This document shows, one piece after another, positions 1 to 42,631 of a DNA stretch of 43,450 nt. The translations under genes and the position numbers were made by a program. The DNA comes from a virus. The notes below the pieces were generated by a model. It was not told the origin of the DNA. It made no database searches and saw only the letters and a program-made list of their open reading frames with translations. Where the stretch lies: IMG/VR virus record IMGVR_UViG_3300029258_003405, positions 1 to 43,450 of that record; one strand, 5' to 3'. Within the stretch, counting starts at the first letter, position 1; each line of letters opens with the position of its first letter.

Positions 1-12
1 GCACTGCTCATC

Positions 13-3000
13 TTGGACGGGGGGAGGGCACGCGCTGTCCGTATTAAAGCGAGGAACGCGGAGGAGGCCAGGAGAATCGCGTTTCGCGAATTGGGTGCAG
101 CAGAGGTTGTATTGCTGGAGGCGGCGTACAGGGGGGAGGTGACTGTCTTCAGGCGCACGGAGATAATGCGTGCCATGTCCTCTTCTCAGGCCTCAAAAGA
201 TGAGGCGGCGCAGCTCGTTTCTCCTAATGGAACTCTGGTTGAAAAGGCGTTGTCGCCCACGGACCCCGTGGACAACAAGATCATCAGTGACAGGTTAGCC
301 GGACAGTTGCTCTACGCGGAACGTAAACTTCTGGGGCCGAAGCTGGAGCAATATGTGAGGCAGCTCAATGTGGACTGGCCGAACCTCACTCCGGCGCAGC
401 TCAGTGAACAATTCGCCAAGGTTCGCACAGGGGTTAGAGGATTGCTCGGAGCTAGCTCTAGAGACATGTTGCCTACATGGCAAGCCCGCACGGAGGTTAC
501 GGTCAGCGGAGTGGTAAGCGGCACGAAGAAGGTAATGCAGACCAACTTCTTGCCGCAGATCGCAACGTCACTGTCGCAACCTAACCGCCAGGTTATCGAG
601 CAGATCTCAGCACAGCAAGGGTTCTTCATGCGGGATGCAGCCGGATTCCGTTCGGATCAAATCACGGCAGCCGGAAGACGTGTTGTGCAGGACGGGCTGA
701 AGCAGGGACTGGGCCGCAATCAGATCGCTGACAACCTCGCGAAACAATTACCTCAGGCATGGCAGAAGTACGGGAGAAATTACTTTCGCACAGTGGCCGC
801 AGTGTCCGTAAACCGAGCACGTTCATACGGTGAGATCTCAGGGTACACCGAGGCAGGAATCGAGCAGCTCGAGGTTCAGGCAGTACTGGACGAGAGAACT
901 ACAGATATATGTTTTGCTGCCGGCACAATGGTGTTGACGCCAAGGGGGGGGCGTCCGATAGAGCTGATAAATCAAGGGGATGAGGTCATAACAGGTCTTG
1001 GAATGAGGCGCAAGGTGAAGGCTGCAATGAGACGGACAACGAATGGTATACTTGAGTTGCTATTGTCGTCCGGTCGTCGCATAATGGTAACCGAGAATCA
1101 TCCAATACTCATGCCCGGAGGATGGATACCGGCGCGTGAACTTAGTGAAGGAGATAAGGTTGCCGGCGAAAGGACAATTCACAGCGGTGATGGTAGACTG
1201 CAAATGCCTCAATTGCGGAAAGCAATTCCGTACACGAGAGATATACACAAAACGTGGCGGCGGAAAGTATTGTTCGCAAGAATGCTGGCGCGGGCATCAG
1301 CGGAGGGGAAGAAGCAAGGCGTACTACGAACGGGTATGTCAAAAGTGCAAAAAAACATTCCGCGTAAGACCTTCCAGCATAGAGAAAGAACGTCGGTACT
1401 GTTCAATAGAATGTCGGCGAAATCGAGCAGATGTCAATTGCAGCACATGTGGGGAAACCTTTACAGTATCGATGAGCAGAAAAGAAACGGCGAAGTATTG
1501 CTCAATCGCATGTCGCGAACGCGGAAGAGAAATGACCAATGCCGAGAGATGGACAGCAGAGGCTTTAACCCAGGCTGGCTGGAAGTGGGAAAGAGAAAAG
1601 GGAATAGGCCGGTTTTCAGTGGATTTCATTGTGGAGGAATTGGGGTTGGCCATAGAGGTAGACGGAGAATATTGGCACGACAAGGCGATGGAGGCGAATC
1701 CTCGGCGCTACGATTCGGAAAGACGAAAAGAATCCGCGATAAAAGATCTGGGATTAAAGCTGATCAGGATAGACGGTGTCGTTTTGAAAAAAGCCCGAGG
1801 CAAATCGCAGCGGACAGCATTCGTGTTGAGCACTATATCAAAGGCGTTAGCAGTTGGCTCGAAGTAGTATCAGTCAAAAAGATCACAGGTGAGTTTACGG
1901 TCTACAACCTGAGCGTTGAAGATGACCCGACATATATTGCCGAAGGTGTGATAGTTCACAATTGCCGTTGCCTTGACGGTCAGATTATTGACACGAATCT
2001 TGCGAGCCAACAGGTTCTCAACGCGGCCTCGGTTAGACAGCCGGAGGACATCTTTGATGCTTCACCTTTTTTGAAGGAGAAAGTCGACCAGAACACGGGC
2101 ACAAAGTCTCTTGTGACAACCAATAACGGCACCAAGATCGCAGAGGTTACGCGCTCCGGTTATGGCCGAGTGGATGACCGCGGTCAGTTTAATAGAACCG
2201 TGGCGAATAACCAGTTAACGGACCACAACATCGGCCCACCCCCGTATCATCACCTGTGCCGTTCGTGGACGGTGCCAGTCTCAAGCACGGTCCAAGTTCC
2301 AAGGGGACAAGTGCCCAGGGCAGGCGGGACAACCCCACCGCTACCCCCGAGGATTGTCCCGAAAGGTGGACGCATTCCGCCAGGTGTTGGTCCGCGACCC
2401 CAGGTGGCTGGGCCGAATCCGACGCCAACAAATCCGAAGCCGACTGGGGAGCCAGACCCGATAGAGAGATACCCCTTTACTGGTGACTTCACTGGGGCGA
2501 CATCTTTGAGTCCGAGTCATTTCAGAGGTACCATCGGCAGGAATTTGAAGAATGCAGCCGTTTATCAGGAATATAGATTTGATCCGGTAACACGGGCAAT
2601 CAGAGCTTCGGGCAAAGATAAAATAGTCCCAAGGCTCACCCGAGAGCAGAGCCTTGCAGGCAAAAGACCTCTCGCGAACCTTTCTAAAAAACTAATATTG
2701 CCGAAGGATGTTTCTGGGGTTCGACTGTATGTTGAGAGGTTGGATCAATTTGCAATCAGGGAGGTTATCTTAGCCGAGTCAAGCCAGCTTCCGGCACGTA
2801 GAATTTATTCAATGAATTCCGTAAGAACCAACACTAACTATTACCTAAAATTCAATGGGGACAAAAAACGTGCAGCATCCTCATATTTAAAGAAGCTCCG
2901 TTCGGCGACTACCCCAAAGCATATCAAGGATGCAATCGCAGGGTTGGAAAAAAAAGGATACGTGCAAGGCACACATAGCTCCAAAGATGTTTTGTTTGGT

Positions 3001-4086
3001 GACACTAAAAGACCGATGAAACCTAAACCAGCCCCCAAGAAACCTAGGCCGGAGAAGAAACCGGAGAAGAAACCAATTACTAGTCCCACTGTACAGCCAA
3101 AACCAAAACCAAAAGTTCATAGGGTTACCCCAACTGGCCAGCTCGAACCCAAGCCGAAACGCAAGCCAAGGGCAAAGCCGGTGAGTGAAACACCCCCCAA
3201 GCCATCCCCCGGAGGGGCCAAAGACTATTCTCAATACGGGTTACTCGACGAGAAAACTCATTCCCTTATTGAACAAGTGCAAACCAGGGCAAAGATGGAA
3301 GCTGCTCGTATTTCTGATGCACTAAAAGCTGCCGAGGCGAAGTTCCCAAAAGGGCTTAGTGCACGGAAGCGAAAACATTTGAAGGCTAGGTCACTTAGGG
3401 ATTTTATAAAAGCTGACACGGGCCCTGTTGAAAAGTTCACTAGCGCTAAGGTAAAAAAATTCCAGACCAAAGAGTTGGGGGGATATTCAAAGGACTCTCT
3501 CGAAGCGGTGGCCCAGCGCAATGCCGCAAAAGGTTCCATGGAGCTTAAGAGGGGTTTTCGTGCATCGCAGGTCCGTCTCAAAGAAGTGTCGAGCAAGCGA
3601 GTGGCAGAATTGATGAATGACTCAAATAGTTTTTTGAGCCAACGCATGGTGGATGCTGCAAAAAAAAATGGGCTGCCCAGAGTTTACGAGGCGACACACA
3701 CAACGGGTGGTGCTTTCTATCTTGATTCGGTGAATGCAATAGTCCTTCCAGCGACTGACTACAGGGGAATGACACAAGTCTTCCGCCATGAGTACAACCA
3801 CTTTATGGATGTGCTTGGCAAGTGTGACAAGGCTGCTGCGAAGTGGAGAAGGTTAAATCAGACAGGTTCGACGATAACCCATCCGGGGGGGTATGATTAT
3901 GTGAAGGGCAAATGGGGAGATGTTTATACAGGCAGGGTTTACAAACACACTGGAACAGAGGTGAACTCAACCATAGCGGAGACACTGGAGCAGTGGCGCG
4001 GGGGTGACATGCTGCGTGCATATAACGCAAACCCAGAACACTTGGGACATTATTTAGCCCAGGCGAAAGGCTCGTTTTTACCATGA
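13..4086 (+). CDS. Minor head (Mu gpF-like) protein with intein and C-terminal HExxH domain
   Basis: This is a head morphogenesis protein that probably sits near the portal inside the capsid. Residues about 70-300 plus the segment after the intein form the Mu protein F-like domain. Its hallmark motif DERTTDI is split from CRCLDGQ by an intein (residues 300-650), so splicing would turn 1357 residues into 1006. After residue about 720 come a Pro-rich linker, an unrecognised domain (about 830-970), a second Pro/Lys-rich linker (about 1000-1060) and a C-terminal domain with HEYNH at 1259-1263, a zinc-metallopeptidase-type HExxH, with acidic residues downstream in AETLE. The extension is AT-richer than the head domain. 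The listed start is TTG at 13, but the frame is open to base 1, so the true start may lie outside the window. The gpF-like call is firm. The peptidase function is inferred from the motif only. Confidence 0.8.
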   Translation: MDGGRARAVRIKARNAEEARRIAFRELGAAEVVLLEAAYRGEVTVFRRTEIMRAMSSSQASKDEAAQLVSPNGTLVEKALSPTDPVDNKIISDRLAGQLLYAERKLLGPKLEQYVRQLNVDWPNLTPAQLSEQFAKVRTGVRGLLGASSRDMLPTWQARTEVTVSGVVSGTKKVMQTNFLPQIATSLSQPNRQVIEQISAQQGFFMRDAAGFRSDQITAAGRRVVQDGLKQGLGRNQIADNLAKQLPQAWQKYGRNYFRTVAAVSVNRARSYGEISGYTEAGIEQLEVQAVLDERTTDICFAAGTMVLTPRGGRPIELINQGDEVITGLGMRRKVKAAMRRTTNGILELLLSSGRRIMVTENHPILMPGGWIPARELSEGDKVAGERTIHSGDGRLQMPQLRKAIPYTRDIHKTWRRKVLFARMLARASAEGKKQGVLRTGMSKVQKNIPRKTFQHRERTSVLFNRMSAKSSRCQLQHMWGNLYSIDEQKRNGEVLLNRMSRTRKRNDQCREMDSRGFNPGWLEVGKRKGNRPVFSGFHCGGIGVGHRGRRRILARQGDGGESSALRFGKTKRIRDKRSGIKADQDRRCRFEKSPRQIAADSIRVEHYIKGVSSWLEVVSVKKITGEFTVYNLSVEDDPTYIAEGVIVHNCRCLDGQIIDTNLASQQVLNAASVRQPEDIFDASPFLKEKVDQNTGTKSLVTTNNGTKIAEVTRSGYGRVDDRGQFNRTVANNQLTDHNIGPPPYHHLCRSWTVPVSSTVQVPRGQVPRAGGTTPPLPPRIVPKGGRIPPGVGPRPQVAGPNPTPTNPKPTGEPDPIERYPFTGDFTGATSLSPSHFRGTIGRNLKNAAVYQEYRFDPVTRAIRASGKDKIVPRLTREQSLAGKRPLANLSKKLILPKDVSGVRLYVERLDQFAIREVILAESSQLPARRIYSMNSVRTNTNYYLKFNGDKKRAASSYLKKLRSATTPKHIKDAIAGLEKKGYVQGTHSSKDVLFGDTKRPMKPKPAPKKPRPEKKPEKKPITSPTVQPKPKPKVHRVTPTGQLEPKPKRKPRAKPVSETPPKPSPGGAKDYSQYGLLDEKTHSLIEQVQTRAKMEAARISDALKAAEAKFPKGLSARKRKHLKARSLRDFIKADTGPVEKFTSAKVKKFQTKELGGYSKDSLEAVAQRNAAKGSMELKRGFRASQVRLKEVSSKRVAELMNDSNSFLSQRMVDAAKKNGLPRVYEATHTTGGAFYLDSVNAIVLPATDYRGMTQVFRHEYNHFMDVLGKCDKAAAKWRRLNQTGSTITHPGGYDYVKGKWGDVYTGRVYKHTGTEVNSTIAETLEQWRGGDMLRAYNANPEHLGHYLAQAKGSFLP
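910..1962 (+). mobile_element. Intein inside the minor head protein
   Basis: This is a self-splicing protein element of about 351 residues (host residues 300-650). It begins with Cys300 in CFAAGTMVL (block A). It has a block B TxxH motif, TENH at 360-363, followed by a G-D-V turn (EGDKV). It ends with VYNLSVEDDPTYIAEG (block F) and the terminal His649-Asn650, followed by Cys651 as the +1 extein nucleophile. All residues needed for class 1 splicing are visible. The recognisable splicing parts total only about 125 residues (910-1170 and 1855-1962). The roughly 225 codons between them are basic, low-complexity and unlike any intein block, because that DNA codes for a homing endonuclease in another frame. 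Insertion within the most conserved motif of the host domain is typical of inteins. Confidence 0.93.
1190..1867 (+). CDS. Zinc-finger Vsr-like homing endonuclease, nested out of frame in the intein
   Basis: This is a DNA endonuclease expected to cut intein-less alleles of the head gene and so drive homing. Three zinc fingers of the form CxxC-x16-18-CxxxC occupy the first half. The second half is a PD-(D/E)XK fold of the Vsr/DUF559/EDxHD type: a Glu in the TAEALTQAG helix, VDFIV, then AIEVDGEYWHD, YDSERR and a final LGLKLIRIDG. Its frame is +1 relative to the intein, and it fills the place where an in-frame endonuclease domain usually lies. ATG 1190 directly precedes the first finger. GTG 1187, TTG 1160 (with AAGGAGA 5 bases upstream) and GTG 1136 are alternatives. 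It stops at 1867, just before the C-terminal splicing blocks. Family assignment is strong. Expression from an internal start is inference. Confidence 0.85.
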   Translation: MVDCKCLNCGKQFRTREIYTKRGGGKYCSQECWRGHQRRGRSKAYYERVCQKCKKTFRVRPSSIEKERRYCSIECRRNRADVNCSTCGETFTVSMSRKETAKYCSIACRERGREMTNAERWTAEALTQAGWKWEREKGIGRFSVDFIVEELGLAIEVDGEYWHDKAMEANPRRYDSERRKESAIKDLGLKLIRIDGVVLKKARGKSQRTAFVLSTISKALAVGSK

Positions 4087-12829: not shown

Positions 12830-13797
12830 TGGCTATCCCCACAGTAACCAGCACGAGCCCTAATTCCGGCAGTACCCGAGGCCGGAACATCATCCGAATA
12901 GTCGGTACCAATTTCAGACTGCCCAACGCACCGGCAGCGACAGGACCTATCCAAAGCGACCAGCAAAAAACGGTATCGGTTCAGTTCGAAGGCGTTGAAT
13001 CAGAGTGGGCCTACGCAGCGAGCAGTAATTTAATCCTGGCGAAGGTTCCACCGTGGACAGGTTCCTACAGTGTCTCATTTCCTGTAGGGGTTGACGTGAG
13101 GGTTGCAAACCTTGACGACTCTGGCGTGGAGATCCCCACGGAGAATGCAACTTTGGTTGATGGATATTCTCAGAATAGGATGAGCCTGGCAGCAGAGCCC
13201 TATCTGCAGTATGTCATCCGCCAGGTAGTGAAGTTGTTCCGAATTCACGTGCTCGAGAACACGCACCACACCACCTCCCGCGATTTCAGTTTGACTCCAA
13301 CGCAGCAAAAAACGGTTCGCGCTGAAGGCCCCCTGGTTCAGCTTCACGGTCCGCGGATGCCTATTAATAGATTCTATTCTTCCAACAGGGAGGAGCCGGA
13401 GGACGACCCCCTCGGCGGCGTCGACGGCAGAATGAGGCGGGAAGTTCCTGTCACCGTGGATATACAGTTTGGGGTTTCCATTTGGGCGAAAGGTGACAGA
13501 CACTTGAAGGCGCTTACCCAGGCGTTACTTTTGTTCCACCGAGACGTTATAGAGGTACCCGTCCTGGTGGACCCAGGAGATCCGTCCAAGGGTACAAAGG
13601 ACTATGAGTTTGTGATGCCCTGGAACGGCTATCCGGAGGCGAACACCGACCCTAATCAGAGTGATTTGCTATCCGTAACGGCACAATCGCATCTTCGTGG
13701 GGTGCACATCGATGAAAACTTTGGTACTATTATCGAACGAGGCTGGATAATTACGCAGAACAATGGCGAGCCTGTGTTGGAAGTCCAGACCACGTAA
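12829..13797 (+). CDS. Neck or tail-terminator protein with N-terminal IPT/TIG domain
   Basis: A 322-residue protein. Residues 3-96 form an immunoglobulin-like IPT/TIG domain: PTVTSTSPNSGSTRGRNIIR starts it, followed by VPPWTGSYSVSF and VRVANLDDSGVE. After residue about 115 comes a helix then beta structure (YLQYVIRQVVKLFRIHVLEN, and later VTVDIQFGVSIWAKGD). The latter is compatible with a tail-terminator-like fold, but I cannot show this. Ig-like domains on virion proteins often decorate the surface. The gene lies directly before the sheath group. Confidence 0.65.
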   Translation: MAIPTVTSTSPNSGSTRGRNIIRIVGTNFRLPNAPAATGPIQSDQQKTVSVQFEGVESEWAYAASSNLILAKVPPWTGSYSVSFPVGVDVRVANLDDSGVEIPTENATLVDGYSQNRMSLAAEPYLQYVIRQVVKLFRIHVLENTHHTTSRDFSLTPTQQKTVRAEGPLVQLHGPRMPINRFYSSNREEPEDDPLGGVDGRMRREVPVTVDIQFGVSIWAKGDRHLKALTQALLLFHRDVIEVPVLVDPGDPSKGTKDYEFVMPWNGYPEANTDPNQSDLLSVTAQSHLRGVHIDENFGTIIERGWIITQNNGEPVLEVQTT

Positions 13798-13811
13798 TTC
13801 GGAGGGAGCCA

Positions 13812-14243
13812 ATGGCTGGAACAATCAAAATAGAAAACAGGACCGAGCGGCATATCCAATACCGCATTGAACATCAAATTGTTTGTGTGAAAATTGGGAG
13901 GTGTCTCTGTCAAAAAGGCCGAAGGGGCACGGTCACATCATCTGTGCATGTTCCCGGTGGCAAAGGCAAGAAGACAGGGGACATACCGGCCTCGGTATTA
14001 TTGTTGCCACAGGTCCTGAAGGACGCGGCAGGTATGAGGCCGCGGATAAAAATTCACGGTACGCAGGTCGAAGAGGAAGTGAAAGTGGAGACAGAGAAAC
14101 CAGATGACGAGACCGGTTCTGACGAGAGTGATACCGGAGAGGATTCTCCACCGGAAAAAGAGACCGCGAATAAGGAACAGGCGAAATCCACCAAGCCGAG
14201 GACAAGAGGCGGCAGAGGCGGACGGCAGGGAAAGAAAAAGTAA
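13812..14243 (+). CDS. Hypothetical protein with charged C-terminal tail
   Basis: A 143-residue protein. The first 80 residues form a small domain (IENRTERHIQYRIEHQIVCV, with a later IPASVLLLPQVLKDAAG). The rest is a disordered Glu-rich then Lys/Arg/Gly-rich tail. It resembles small proteins found between neck and sheath genes in other phages, whose role is unknown. GGAGGGAG precedes the ATG. A weak CCCCA/TGGGG hairpin (14269-14287) lies in the short gap that follows. Confidence 0.65.
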   Translation: MAGTIKIENRTERHIQYRIEHQIVCVKIGRCLCQKGRRGTVTSSVHVPGGKGKKTGDIPASVLLLPQVLKDAAGMRPRIKIHGTQVEEEVKVETEKPDDETGSDESDTGEDSPPEKETANKEQAKSTKPRTRGGRGGRQGKKK

Positions 14244-14303
14244 CAAGGGAGACCACCCGTAAACCAAGCCCCACAAAAAGGATGGGGTAATAGGAGGAAG
14301 ACG

Positions 14304-16556
14304 ATGGCAGCAGAACTTATTGCCTCGAAAGTGGTCATCCTCGAGGAGGAGCCGTCAATCCCGACCATAGCAGCGTTGCCCAGTGCGGTTACGCTTTGCT
14401 TGGGAATCACCGAACGCGGGGTCATCGCCGATCCGCAGCTCCTGACATCCTTTGAGGAATACCAACGAAGTTTCGGCGGGTTCACGCTGGACAGTGAAGT
14501 ATGCGTAGCTGCATACGGATTCTTCCGGCAAGGAGGCACATTCATGTGGGTCTCCCGAACCTGTCATTTCACGGACCTTACTGATCCCAATACGGCAACG
14601 GCAGCCAAGGCTTCGGTAATGCTCCAAAACACGGGCTCATTAGCCACCCCAGCCTCGGTTGGACCAGGCACTGAAGTTGGGCCTTTCCCCATGAGCGACG
14701 GGGATCACATCGACATCGACATCGGAGCAGGTCCGGTAGTTTCGACGTTCAATGGCGCGGCGGCGGACATTACCGACACCGTGGTCTATCCCATCGGCCC
14801 CCTGGCTGGTGGCGAAACGATGGGCATTACCATTGATGGTGCTTTCGGTGACCAAGAGCAGACGATTACGGCAGTCGGTGGTGAGACTACGGCTGCGAAC
14901 ATGATAGATCTCATCAACTCTCAAATCGTTGGCGGGAGAGCGGTGCTTTCCGGTGCGAATGTCCAAGTGGTTACCGACGTCAAAGGTACCAGCGCGGGTG
15001 TCCAGATCACCACGAGCGGCACGCTCAATGCCATCCTGCTTTTCCCCACAGCCAAAGACAGCGGCACGGGCAATGTGGCCGACATCGAAGGCGGCGTTAC
15101 AGGGCCCGAGGTGGAGGCTATTGTTGAGGCTGCACTCGCAGCGGCTGTTGATGTGATCATTAACGGCACGGGCACTCTGACGATAGAGACTGTCGCCACA
15201 GGGGTAGCAGCAGAAATCCAGGTGGAAGTAACTTCCACGGTTGATTTCGGGCTCGACAACCTTCTGCACAATGGTACCGATGCAACGCCAGCGAACACGC
15301 TGCTGTGCGAGGGCAAGACACCAGGTTCCTACGCGGACAACATCACCATCGTGATAGCTGCGGCAACCAACGCCGTTTCTGCAAATTTCAACCTGCAGGT
15401 TGTTCTGAGTGGGGTTGTGAAGGAGACCTTCACCAATCTCTCGATGGATGACTCCAGCACCAGCTATGTGGAGACCATCATCAACGATGTCAACCTGGGC
15501 TCCCGTCTCATCGCAGTGACCGACCAGGGTTTAACCCCCGTGTCTATCAAGCGTCCCGCAGACGGAACATCTGCCGCCATGACAGGTGGTGACGACGGAC
15601 TGGTAGGAATCACCGATGCGGACTATGTTGGAAACGTAGCTGGCCCCACTGGTCTCTACACTTTCGACCGTGTCCAAACGGGTCGAATCCTCATCGTCCC
15701 TGGACTCTACACCGAGGTTGTTCACAAGGGCATGCTGGACTACGCCGAAATAGATCGGAATGGGTCCCTATTTTGCTTCTTGGATTGCCCACCGCAAAAC
15801 ACCAAGACACAAGTTGTCGCCTACCTCACGGGAGCGGGGCTTCTTGAGTACTCGGAGTTCGGCACCATTCACTGGCCGTGGATAACAGTAGGGAATCCAC
15901 AGCCAGCCGTGTACGGCACCGATGACAACATCACCGTCCCACCCTCGGGCTGGCTCGCCGGCAAATGCGCGGCCAACGACCAGAGGCTCGGTGGGGTGTA
16001 CGAGCAACCTGCTGGCTACGGACCTGGCGGCTGGGGAGTTATCCGCGGCATGACCGGAGTCGAAGACGACCCACAGGGCCAGACAGACCACGAGTGCCTG
16101 GATGAGAAAGCGCGAGACTACGTACAGTCGTACCGCATCAACCCGATGAACAGGACCGCCCAAGGGCTCTGGTACGTCGACGGGCACTACACCTTGAAGT
16201 CCACCGGAAACTTCCCGAGCATTGGCGAGCGACGAGGAGTCATCTTCATCGCCACTTCGCTCCAGGAAGGTCTTGCGATCTTCAAGCACCGCTTCAACAA
16301 CCGAACAAACCGGCAACGAGCGAGGCGCAGCATCAGGACATTCCTCATCGCCGAGATGAACAAGGGAGCGTTCCGCAGCACGAATCCTGCGGATGCTTTC
16401 TTCGTGGATGCAAGCGACGCCCTGAATCCGGTGATGAACGAATTCGCCGGCATCATGACCATCCGTATCGGCCTTGCGACAAACAAGCCGACCCAGTGGA
16501 TCATCTTGCTAATTACCCAGGACACCAGAGCGCTCGAAGAGTCGCTCGCGGCCTAA
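14304..16556 (+). CDS. Contractile tail sheath protein with inserted beta modules
   Basis: The sheath subunit that contracts around the tube to drive DNA delivery. The conserved C-terminal half shows the family pattern: ERRGVIFIATSLQEGL, then NNRTNRQRARRSIRTFLIAE, MNKGAFRSTNPADAFFVD and a final RIGLATNKPTQWIILLITQD. The N-terminal arm (1-110) is typical. At 750 residues it is larger than the roughly 400-500 residues of simple sheaths. The excess lies near residues 112-333, where Gly/Asp/Thr-rich beta modules (ITIDGAFGDQEQTITAV) interrupt the core before it resumes at GKTPGSYADNITI. These probably face outward. AGGAGGAAG precedes the ATG. Confidence 0.93.
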   Translation: MAAELIASKVVILEEEPSIPTIAALPSAVTLCLGITERGVIADPQLLTSFEEYQRSFGGFTLDSEVCVAAYGFFRQGGTFMWVSRTCHFTDLTDPNTATAAKASVMLQNTGSLATPASVGPGTEVGPFPMSDGDHIDIDIGAGPVVSTFNGAAADITDTVVYPIGPLAGGETMGITIDGAFGDQEQTITAVGGETTAANMIDLINSQIVGGRAVLSGANVQVVTDVKGTSAGVQITTSGTLNAILLFPTAKDSGTGNVADIEGGVTGPEVEAIVEAALAAAVDVIINGTGTLTIETVATGVAAEIQVEVTSTVDFGLDNLLHNGTDATPANTLLCEGKTPGSYADNITIVIAAATNAVSANFNLQVVLSGVVKETFTNLSMDDSSTSYVETIINDVNLGSRLIAVTDQGLTPVSIKRPADGTSAAMTGGDDGLVGITDADYVGNVAGPTGLYTFDRVQTGRILIVPGLYTEVVHKGMLDYAEIDRNGSLFCFLDCPPQNTKTQVVAYLTGAGLLEYSEFGTIHWPWITVGNPQPAVYGTDDNITVPPSGWLAGKCAANDQRLGGVYEQPAGYGPGGWGVIRGMTGVEDDPQGQTDHECLDEKARDYVQSYRINPMNRTAQGLWYVDGHYTLKSTGNFPSIGERRGVIFIATSLQEGLAIFKHRFNNRTNRQRARRSIRTFLIAEMNKGAFRSTNPADAFFVDASDALNPVMNEFAGIMTIRIGLATNKPTQWIILLITQDTRALEESLAA

Positions 16557-42178: not shown

Positions 42179-42631
42179 ATGACTACTAAACAACAAAACA
42201 AAATAGCAAAACGAAAAAAACTGGACGAACAACGCAAGGGTACCGAGAGACCAACAGGACAGTGGATTCGTACTGACCTGAGACTAGCCATCTACCTAAG
42301 AGATGAATTCCGGTGCGTATATTGCGGAAGCGACCTACACGGGGCAGCGCCAACGGATCTCACCCTTGACCATATTCACCTCTGGTCTAAGGGGGGAGAG
42401 AACGACCCAACTAATCTCATAACAGCATGTAGATCTTGCAACTGTTCCCGCGGGGCCAAGAGCCTGAGTCAGTACGCCGACGAGCACACGCGGAAGGCGG
42501 TACGCCGGCAAACGCGCAGGGAGATTCGGAAGTACCGCGAGCTGGCCCGTTCTATTCTCAACGGCGAAGCACCCGAGGAAACTTTGCAGAAACAACCGCG
42601 ACCCTGGAGGTCGCGAAGGAGGACGAAATGA
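42179..42631 (+). CDS. HNH endonuclease
   Basis: A 150-residue nuclease of the HNH type with a zinc-bound beta-beta-alpha core. C46-x2-C49 (CVYCG), then LTLDHIHLWSKGG with Asp64-His65, Asn79 in DPTNLI and C84-x2-C87 (CRSC) supply the two metal-binding Cys pairs and the catalytic His. The tail is basic. Stand-alone phage HNH genes act either in DNA packaging or as homing endonucleases. This one lies away from terminase genes. Its ribosome site is weak. Its stop overlaps the next ATG (ATGA). Confidence 0.88.
   Translation: MTTKQQNKIAKRKKLDEQRKGTERPTGQWIRTDLRLAIYLRDEFRCVYCGSDLHGAAPTDLTLDHIHLWSKGGENDPTNLITACRSCNCSRGAKSLSQYADEHTRKAVRRQTRREIRKYRELARSILNGEAPEETLQKQPRPWRSRRRTK

Follow-up and report, generated by a model that had tools for sequence, protein, structure and literature searches.

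A phage minor head-protein gene is interrupted by an intein and, very probably, the best explanation of the locus is a homing intein whose endonuclease is encoded in an overlapping reading frame. The gene opens the window (the whole 43,450-nucleotide stretch of virus DNA analysed here, an IMG/VR record). The intein occupies 910-1962 and the endonuclease gene 1160-1867, both on the forward strand; relative to the intein frame, the endonuclease is read in +1. A preliminary description of this DNA had proposed an uninterrupted intein frame running over a complete endonuclease frame, and this is borne out: there are no stops over 1-4086, Pfam and NCBIfam intein families match the head-protein frame, and Vsr-like families match the endonuclease frame. 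The same layout is found in dozens of other phages, and thus points to a widespread building plan rather than a one-off oddity.

The intein and the gene nested within it

The first gene of the window is a single stop-free frame (1-4086, forward strand) encoding a head protein of the Mu gpF/SPP1 gp7 (MuF) type, its 5′ end truncated by the contig edge. Profile searches with this frame matched phrog_13868 (E=5e-39) and TIGR01641 (E=4e-8). The N-extein spans 1-909 and has a homologue in contig L002; the C-extein, at 1963-4086, begins with Cys+1 (CRCLDGQII). L002 carries the empty allele (ERTTDICRCLDGQII), in which ERTTD-I/C-RCLDGQII is continuous over the insertion site, and the insertion in the window is therefore precise and in frame. 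An ordinary HNH endonuclease gene (42179-42631; PF01844, E=4e-13) lies near the far contig end.

The intein matches Pfam Intein_splicing (E=1e-14) as well as NCBIfam intein_Cterm, and all class 1 residues are present in the window: C1, the TENH box, HN, and C+1. Its N-terminal splicing domain (910-1176, residues 1-89; PF14890/PF13403) holds Cys1 at 910-912 and the TxxH box, TENH, at 1090-1101. The C-terminal splicing domain (1813-1962; TIGR01443) ends with His-Asn at 1957-1962; this block had previously been placed from 1855, but the folded part starts near 1813. Across 11 inteins, C1, T61, H64, H350, and N351 are invariant. When the intein frame is modelled with AlphaFold2, residues 1-89 and 302-351 adopt a Hint fold with high confidence (pLDDT ~95 for both domains), for which the best Foldseek matches are the mini-inteins 2lwy, gp41-1, and Mtu RecA. 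Residues 90-301, with pLDDT <50, form a stop-free, disordered linker (1177-1812), which is the endonuclease DNA read in the intein frame and is no more conserved than a control frame. With motifs, fold, and empty allele all present, the element is, by sequence, a Hint-fold class 1 intein, its splicing itself being predicted. A run of eight G residues (943-950) lies inside the N-terminal block, where the frame is confirmed by homologues.

The endonuclease frame is open from 1091 to 1867 and ends at its own TAG (1865-1867). From TTG 1160 it encodes 235 residues, 34-44% identical to other members of the family described below. Three Cys4 zinc-finger units (1205-1513), with Cys pairs conserved in 38 relatives and a modelled pLDDT of at least ~90 for most of their length, are followed by a nuclease domain (1544-1864) assigned by Pfam to the Vsr/DUF559/MTES_1575 families (PF18741, PF04480, and PF03852). 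Residues E129, D155, D168, and H173 of this domain are invariant in the 38 relatives. The structure model, computed from an alignment without two rows from annotated records, has a mean pLDDT of 92 and is less confident at the 5′ end. Its nearest solved fold in Foldseek is 3r3p, the I-Bth0305I catalytic domain (E=1.3e-4, 24% identity), with Vsr 1cw0 at E=7e-4. The match came from the fold search; a sequence search of the PDB with the nuclease returned 3r3p only weakly, at E ~0.5. On sequence and model together, the predicted enzyme has a nuclease domain of the Vsr type, in which the catalytic acids and histidine are conserved. DNA encoding structure in both frames is confined to the overlap ends, with ~17 nt at the 5′ end and ~50 nt at the 3′ end; the latter arises because the folded C-terminal splicing block begins at ~1813, so that the last ~50 nt of the endonuclease gene overlap structured intein.

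TTG is a weak start codon in most bacteria. The Shine-Dalgarno sequence upstream of TTG 1160, AAGGAG (1148-1153, spacer of 6), is formed by the conserved E-G-D codons of the intein itself, and its pairing energy is -8.8 kcal/mol versus a median of -8.5 for window genes. In 8 of 9 members, TTG directly follows the intein L-x-x-G-D motif and the motif codons are the Shine-Dalgarno (AAGGAGATAAGG-TTG in the window); L012 has an ATG start with a different Shine-Dalgarno, and a partial member, L186, shows no obvious endonuclease start. In L121 and L123, the Shine-Dalgarno is not unusual for their gene. Mini-inteins without an endonuclease code the motif as GGCGAC, with energies of -3.2 and -3.4. The endonuclease therefore probably has a separate start at TTG 1160, used via the hidden Shine-Dalgarno, a better placement than the 1190 proposed earlier.

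One insertion site and selection against stops

Relatives were sought with endonuclease-alignment scans, a DNA pattern for the head-intein junction, and frame checks. The scans are pattern-based, and all counts from the collection are thus to be read as "at least" rather than as estimates of frequency. The contigs are metagenomic, except for deposited phages and one Streptomyces genome. At least nine further inteins occupy exactly the site of the window intein in diverged phages (L009, L010, L012, L118, L119, L121, L122, L123, and the partial L186; L120 is another contig carrying the L121 element). In all nine, the endonuclease lies in the same relative frame and the intein frame is without stops; in the nine complete elements, counting that of the window, the endonuclease has its own TAG stop. 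These homologues lack the stops that would have refuted the earlier one-chain reading, and ten members exclude a sequencing error. Pattern scans with the single endonuclease or whole-intein sequence had no matches, and those with the exteins matched L002 only. A pattern scan also recovered two mini-inteins without endonuclease at the same site, L185 (165 aa) and L188 (175 aa). Both empty and mini-intein alleles, for which the preliminary description had advised a search, therefore exist, and one site is found in three states: empty, mini-intein, and hidden endonuclease.

All ten endonucleases group in a single clade (support 100/99), with 34-56% identity for most pairs. Such divergence with the same frame relation marks a stable state; the suggestion that the window intein is an intermediate between contiguous and split inteins finds nothing in the data that shows transience. 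Other layouts do occur in MuF-type genes. L171/L175 (2387-5257) contain a MuF intein with a Vsr-like endonuclease in frame, inserted a few residues away, and in L036 (2816-4886) a MuF-like gene is interrupted at a second site (PPLMWNA) by an intein whose endonuclease is fused in frame to the N-intein and whose C-intein lies in an overlapping ORF of another frame, making it a broken or split intein. As these in-frame (L171) and broken (L036) inteins carry the same enzyme family, the layouts either interconvert or arose repeatedly, and conversion between them is possible.

Several candidate relatives were set aside. The mycobacteriophage portal inteins (ET08, Gizmo, and Colt) match in the N-block but sit in another gene, and the one translated, from ET08, has a long in-frame insert resembling an ordinary LAGLIDADG endonuclease and no hidden endonuclease. 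The MuF intein of Vibrio phage 1.265.O is at a different site and has no hidden ORF. Sense-strand "open frames" in L033, L034, and L048 are short GC-rich chance frames or a frameshift.

Over the 226 codons of the overlap, the intein frame has no stops and the third frame has 17. Shuffling synonymous codons within the endonuclease produces 8.5 stops on average, with 0 of 100,000 permutations stop-free; under phage codon usage the average is 12.8, and 0 of 20,000 randomisations are stop-free. A second frame open by chance, earlier put at under 1 in 1000, is thus far rarer still. The codon choices responsible can be seen directly: a third-position T, prone to create a stop before AA, AG, or GA, is found there in 0 of 70 cases in the window endonuclease versus 33 of 154 elsewhere, and in 0 of 678 versus 336 of 1760 across the nine complete elements, window included (Fisher P 2e-52).

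In pairwise comparisons, changes are concentrated at codon position 3 of the endonuclease. Identity between L010 and L122 is 0.76 for the endonuclease, 0.54 for the intein frame, and 0.52 for the control third frame; the corresponding values for L121 and L123 are 0.83, 0.72, and 0.71. Since the intein frame is as identical as an unused frame and the linker is disordered, selection preserves the protein sequence of the endonuclease, and all that it maintains in the intein frame, the ends apart, is freedom from stops. The selection on both frames proposed at the outset is therefore real for the endonuclease sequence; in the intein frame it acts against stops and not on the amino acids, which fare no better than those of the third frame.

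Terminase and antisense counterparts

In a flank of L038, an HNH endonuclease is encoded out of frame, in the other sense frame, within a terminase-type intein, which makes an independent recurrence of the layout. The same arrangement is present in the deposited genomes of Tetrasphaera phage TJE1 (terL at 13379-15565), Acinetobacter phage Highwayman, and Rhodobacteraceae phage LS06-2018-MD07. All three loci are annotated merely as terminase large subunit. In TJE1 and Highwayman, Pfam detects intein domains when the terminase frame is searched and HNH_3 when the overlapping frame is searched. Among the best 80 HNH relatives in IMG/VR, 71 lie out of frame inside an uninterrupted host ORF, 64 of them with an intein C-terminal motif; one of the 71, L200, seems to be the TJE1 genome a second time. 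Of ten hosts checked with Pfam, seven contain a named terminase, and every one has an intein or Hint domain. Across 59 loci of this large-terminase (TerL)-HNH class, which include some near-duplicates and were chosen for being open, ~109 stops are expected and none is seen; un-nested relatives have 2-12. The TerL host frame is naturally stop-poor (P0 often 0.1-0.4), so single TerL loci are weak evidence. L267 (260-3832), a terminase ORF, appears to contain two inteins.

On the opposite strand, at least twelve distinct inteins (L011, L013, L019, L023, L025, L028, L029, L033, L051, L057, L094, and L124) carry a Vsr-like endonuclease in codon-aligned antisense, with the intein frame open throughout; most are in MuF-type head genes. 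Pfam identified an intein or Hint domain in 8 of 8 antisense hosts searched and a MuF domain in 6 of 8. L094 is from a Streptomyces alboflavus genome. The free-standing status of many Vsr-like relatives was rejected once an opposite-strand scan placed them antisense inside inteins.

Codon use separates these groups. Sense-nested Vsr-like enzymes have 0 of 643 sense-stop contexts and 37 of 299 antisense-stop codons; in antisense-nested enzymes the figures are 127 of 579 and 0 of 270, and in other Vsr-like enzymes 218 of 915 and 93 of 403. Within one enzyme family, each nested group avoids exactly the stops of its own host frame, which is a double dissociation. Hidden-endonuclease inteins likely constitute a large and largely unrecognised class of phage mobile elements, in which the splicing frame is a protein-level intron that needs only to be stop-free, and in which the endonuclease may be related to it as -1 sense, +1 sense, or codon-aligned antisense.

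Related overlaps were also encountered outside this set. In L003/L035 (mycobacteriophages Camster and Seagreen), L040, L043, L044, L089, L090, and L095, the strand opposite a Vsr-like endonuclease has an open frame of 258-387 aa; some of these loci apparently lie inside, or split, DNA methylase genes, and the annotated gp55 of Camster is the antisense frame. L174 (836-1336 and ~1858-2540), L178, L179, and L180 contain ShiLan-like methylase insertions with a hidden HNH, with seemingly two such insertions in the one methylase gene of L174.

Mechanism, competing explanations, and known systems

A ribosome on the intein frame would cross the endonuclease DNA, which in that frame specifies a linker that is disordered and without meaning. 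The splicing blocks would then pair, excise the linker-bearing intein, and join the head protein, as the intact splicing residues and the empty allele suggest. A second ribosome, initiating at TTG 1160 via the Shine-Dalgarno in the L-x-x-G-D codons, would make the free zinc-finger and Vsr/EDxHD-type enzyme, a product for which coding conservation is shown and the start is inferred. This enzyme would cut intein-free head genes at the conserved ERTTD-I/C-RCLDG, a target specificity deduced from the insertion site, and recombination would copy the element in.

An enzyme made by +1 ribosomal frameshifting upstream of 1160, yielding a head protein-N-intein-endonuclease fusion, is improbable. Because the endonuclease frame extends open upstream as far as 1091, slippage between there and 1160 would be productive, but in 8 of 9 members the start codon and Shine-Dalgarno lie at an equivalent position, the latter is absent from mini-inteins lacking the endonuclease, and no conserved slippery site was noticed in an unsystematic look. 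It is much less probable again that this is a split, or fractured, intein gene with a free-standing endonuclease and separately translated halves. Vsr-like enzymes are those reported in such genes, as cited in PMC12350094, and the MuF intein of L036 is broken and carries an enzyme of this family; against this, the intein frame has no stops in 10 of 10 members and is under strong selection against them.

The remaining explanations each have a negligible probability. One frame might be alive and the other open by accident, and for many single TerL-HNH loci the naturally stop-poor host frame lends this some force; in the MuF class the permutations and the pooled P of ~1e-52 weigh against it, as does the avoidance by sense- and antisense-nested enzymes alike of exactly the host-frame stops. 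Sequencing or assembly frameshifts could have displaced an in-frame endonuclease domain, given an error-prone G8 run and the existence of the in-frame relative L171, but two compensating errors would be needed, the layout recurs in ten independent elements and three deposited phage genomes, and the endonuclease ends at its own TAG in every complete member. Homing endonuclease genes are common in introns, and the insert might be removed as an RNA intron with the intein signatures incidental; yet no Rfam family matched 800-2100 even at E<=1, and the splicing residues are invariant in 11 inteins.

Searches of the open-licence literature yielded no description of an intein whose endonuclease is out of frame or antisense. 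Because inteins are usually recognised by protein searches, an endonuclease that is out of frame or encoded on the opposite strand goes unseen, leaving an intein that seems oversized and endonuclease-less. The layout would explain how a homing gene can be freely expressed inside a splicing element without fusion to the splicing domain, and it provides clean examples of long overlapping genes, antisense ones too, for which the cause of the overlap is understood. It also suggests how a contiguous intein could become fractured through the gain of one stop codon. If correct, the in-frame fused endonuclease is one of several arrangements, at least in phage head and terminase genes, and the layout is directly testable in deposited genomes such as that of Tetrasphaera phage TJE1.

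Canonical homing inteins such as PI-SceI share with the window element a contiguous precursor, a Hint splicing fold, an enzyme between the N and C blocks, and insertion at a conserved motif; the window endonuclease differs in having another frame with its own start and stop, and the linker in being unconserved and disordered. Fractured genes, which according to Dassa and colleagues in 2009 reportedly comprise split inteins with a free-standing Vsr-like EDxHD endonuclease, have in common the nuclease superfamily, the phage setting, and an endonuclease ORF between intein halves, but the window intein is unsplit, and one frame, kept open by selection, runs across the endonuclease gene. I-Bth0305I and other EDxHD homing endonucleases offer the nearest solved catalytic fold; the window enzyme, however, has three Cys4 zinc-finger units and is nested in an intein, not an intron. 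Endonuclease genes in group I introns are likewise independent ORFs with their own start within a splicing element, whereas splicing in the window is at the protein level, and the endonuclease DNA must therefore be translatable in the host frame. A Mu-like cryoconite phage is reported to carry an intein with a 0.8 kb homing endonuclease in its minor head protein (PMC7468147), which is possibly of the same kind.

Arsenault et al. 2025 (PMC11855218) described the ShiLan domain and the Pacc40 insertion in phage DNA methylases, with a hidden HNH and no splicing domain. As in the window, a stop-free in-frame insertion encodes an endonuclease in another frame (a zinc-finger HNH in ShiLan), and the distribution is disjunct. 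ShiLan, lacking a splicing domain, is thought to be retained in the methylase, whereas the window element is a bona fide intein with a Vsr-like enzyme in a structural head gene. The nearest published precedent found is this 2025 methylase insertion, which is not an intein.
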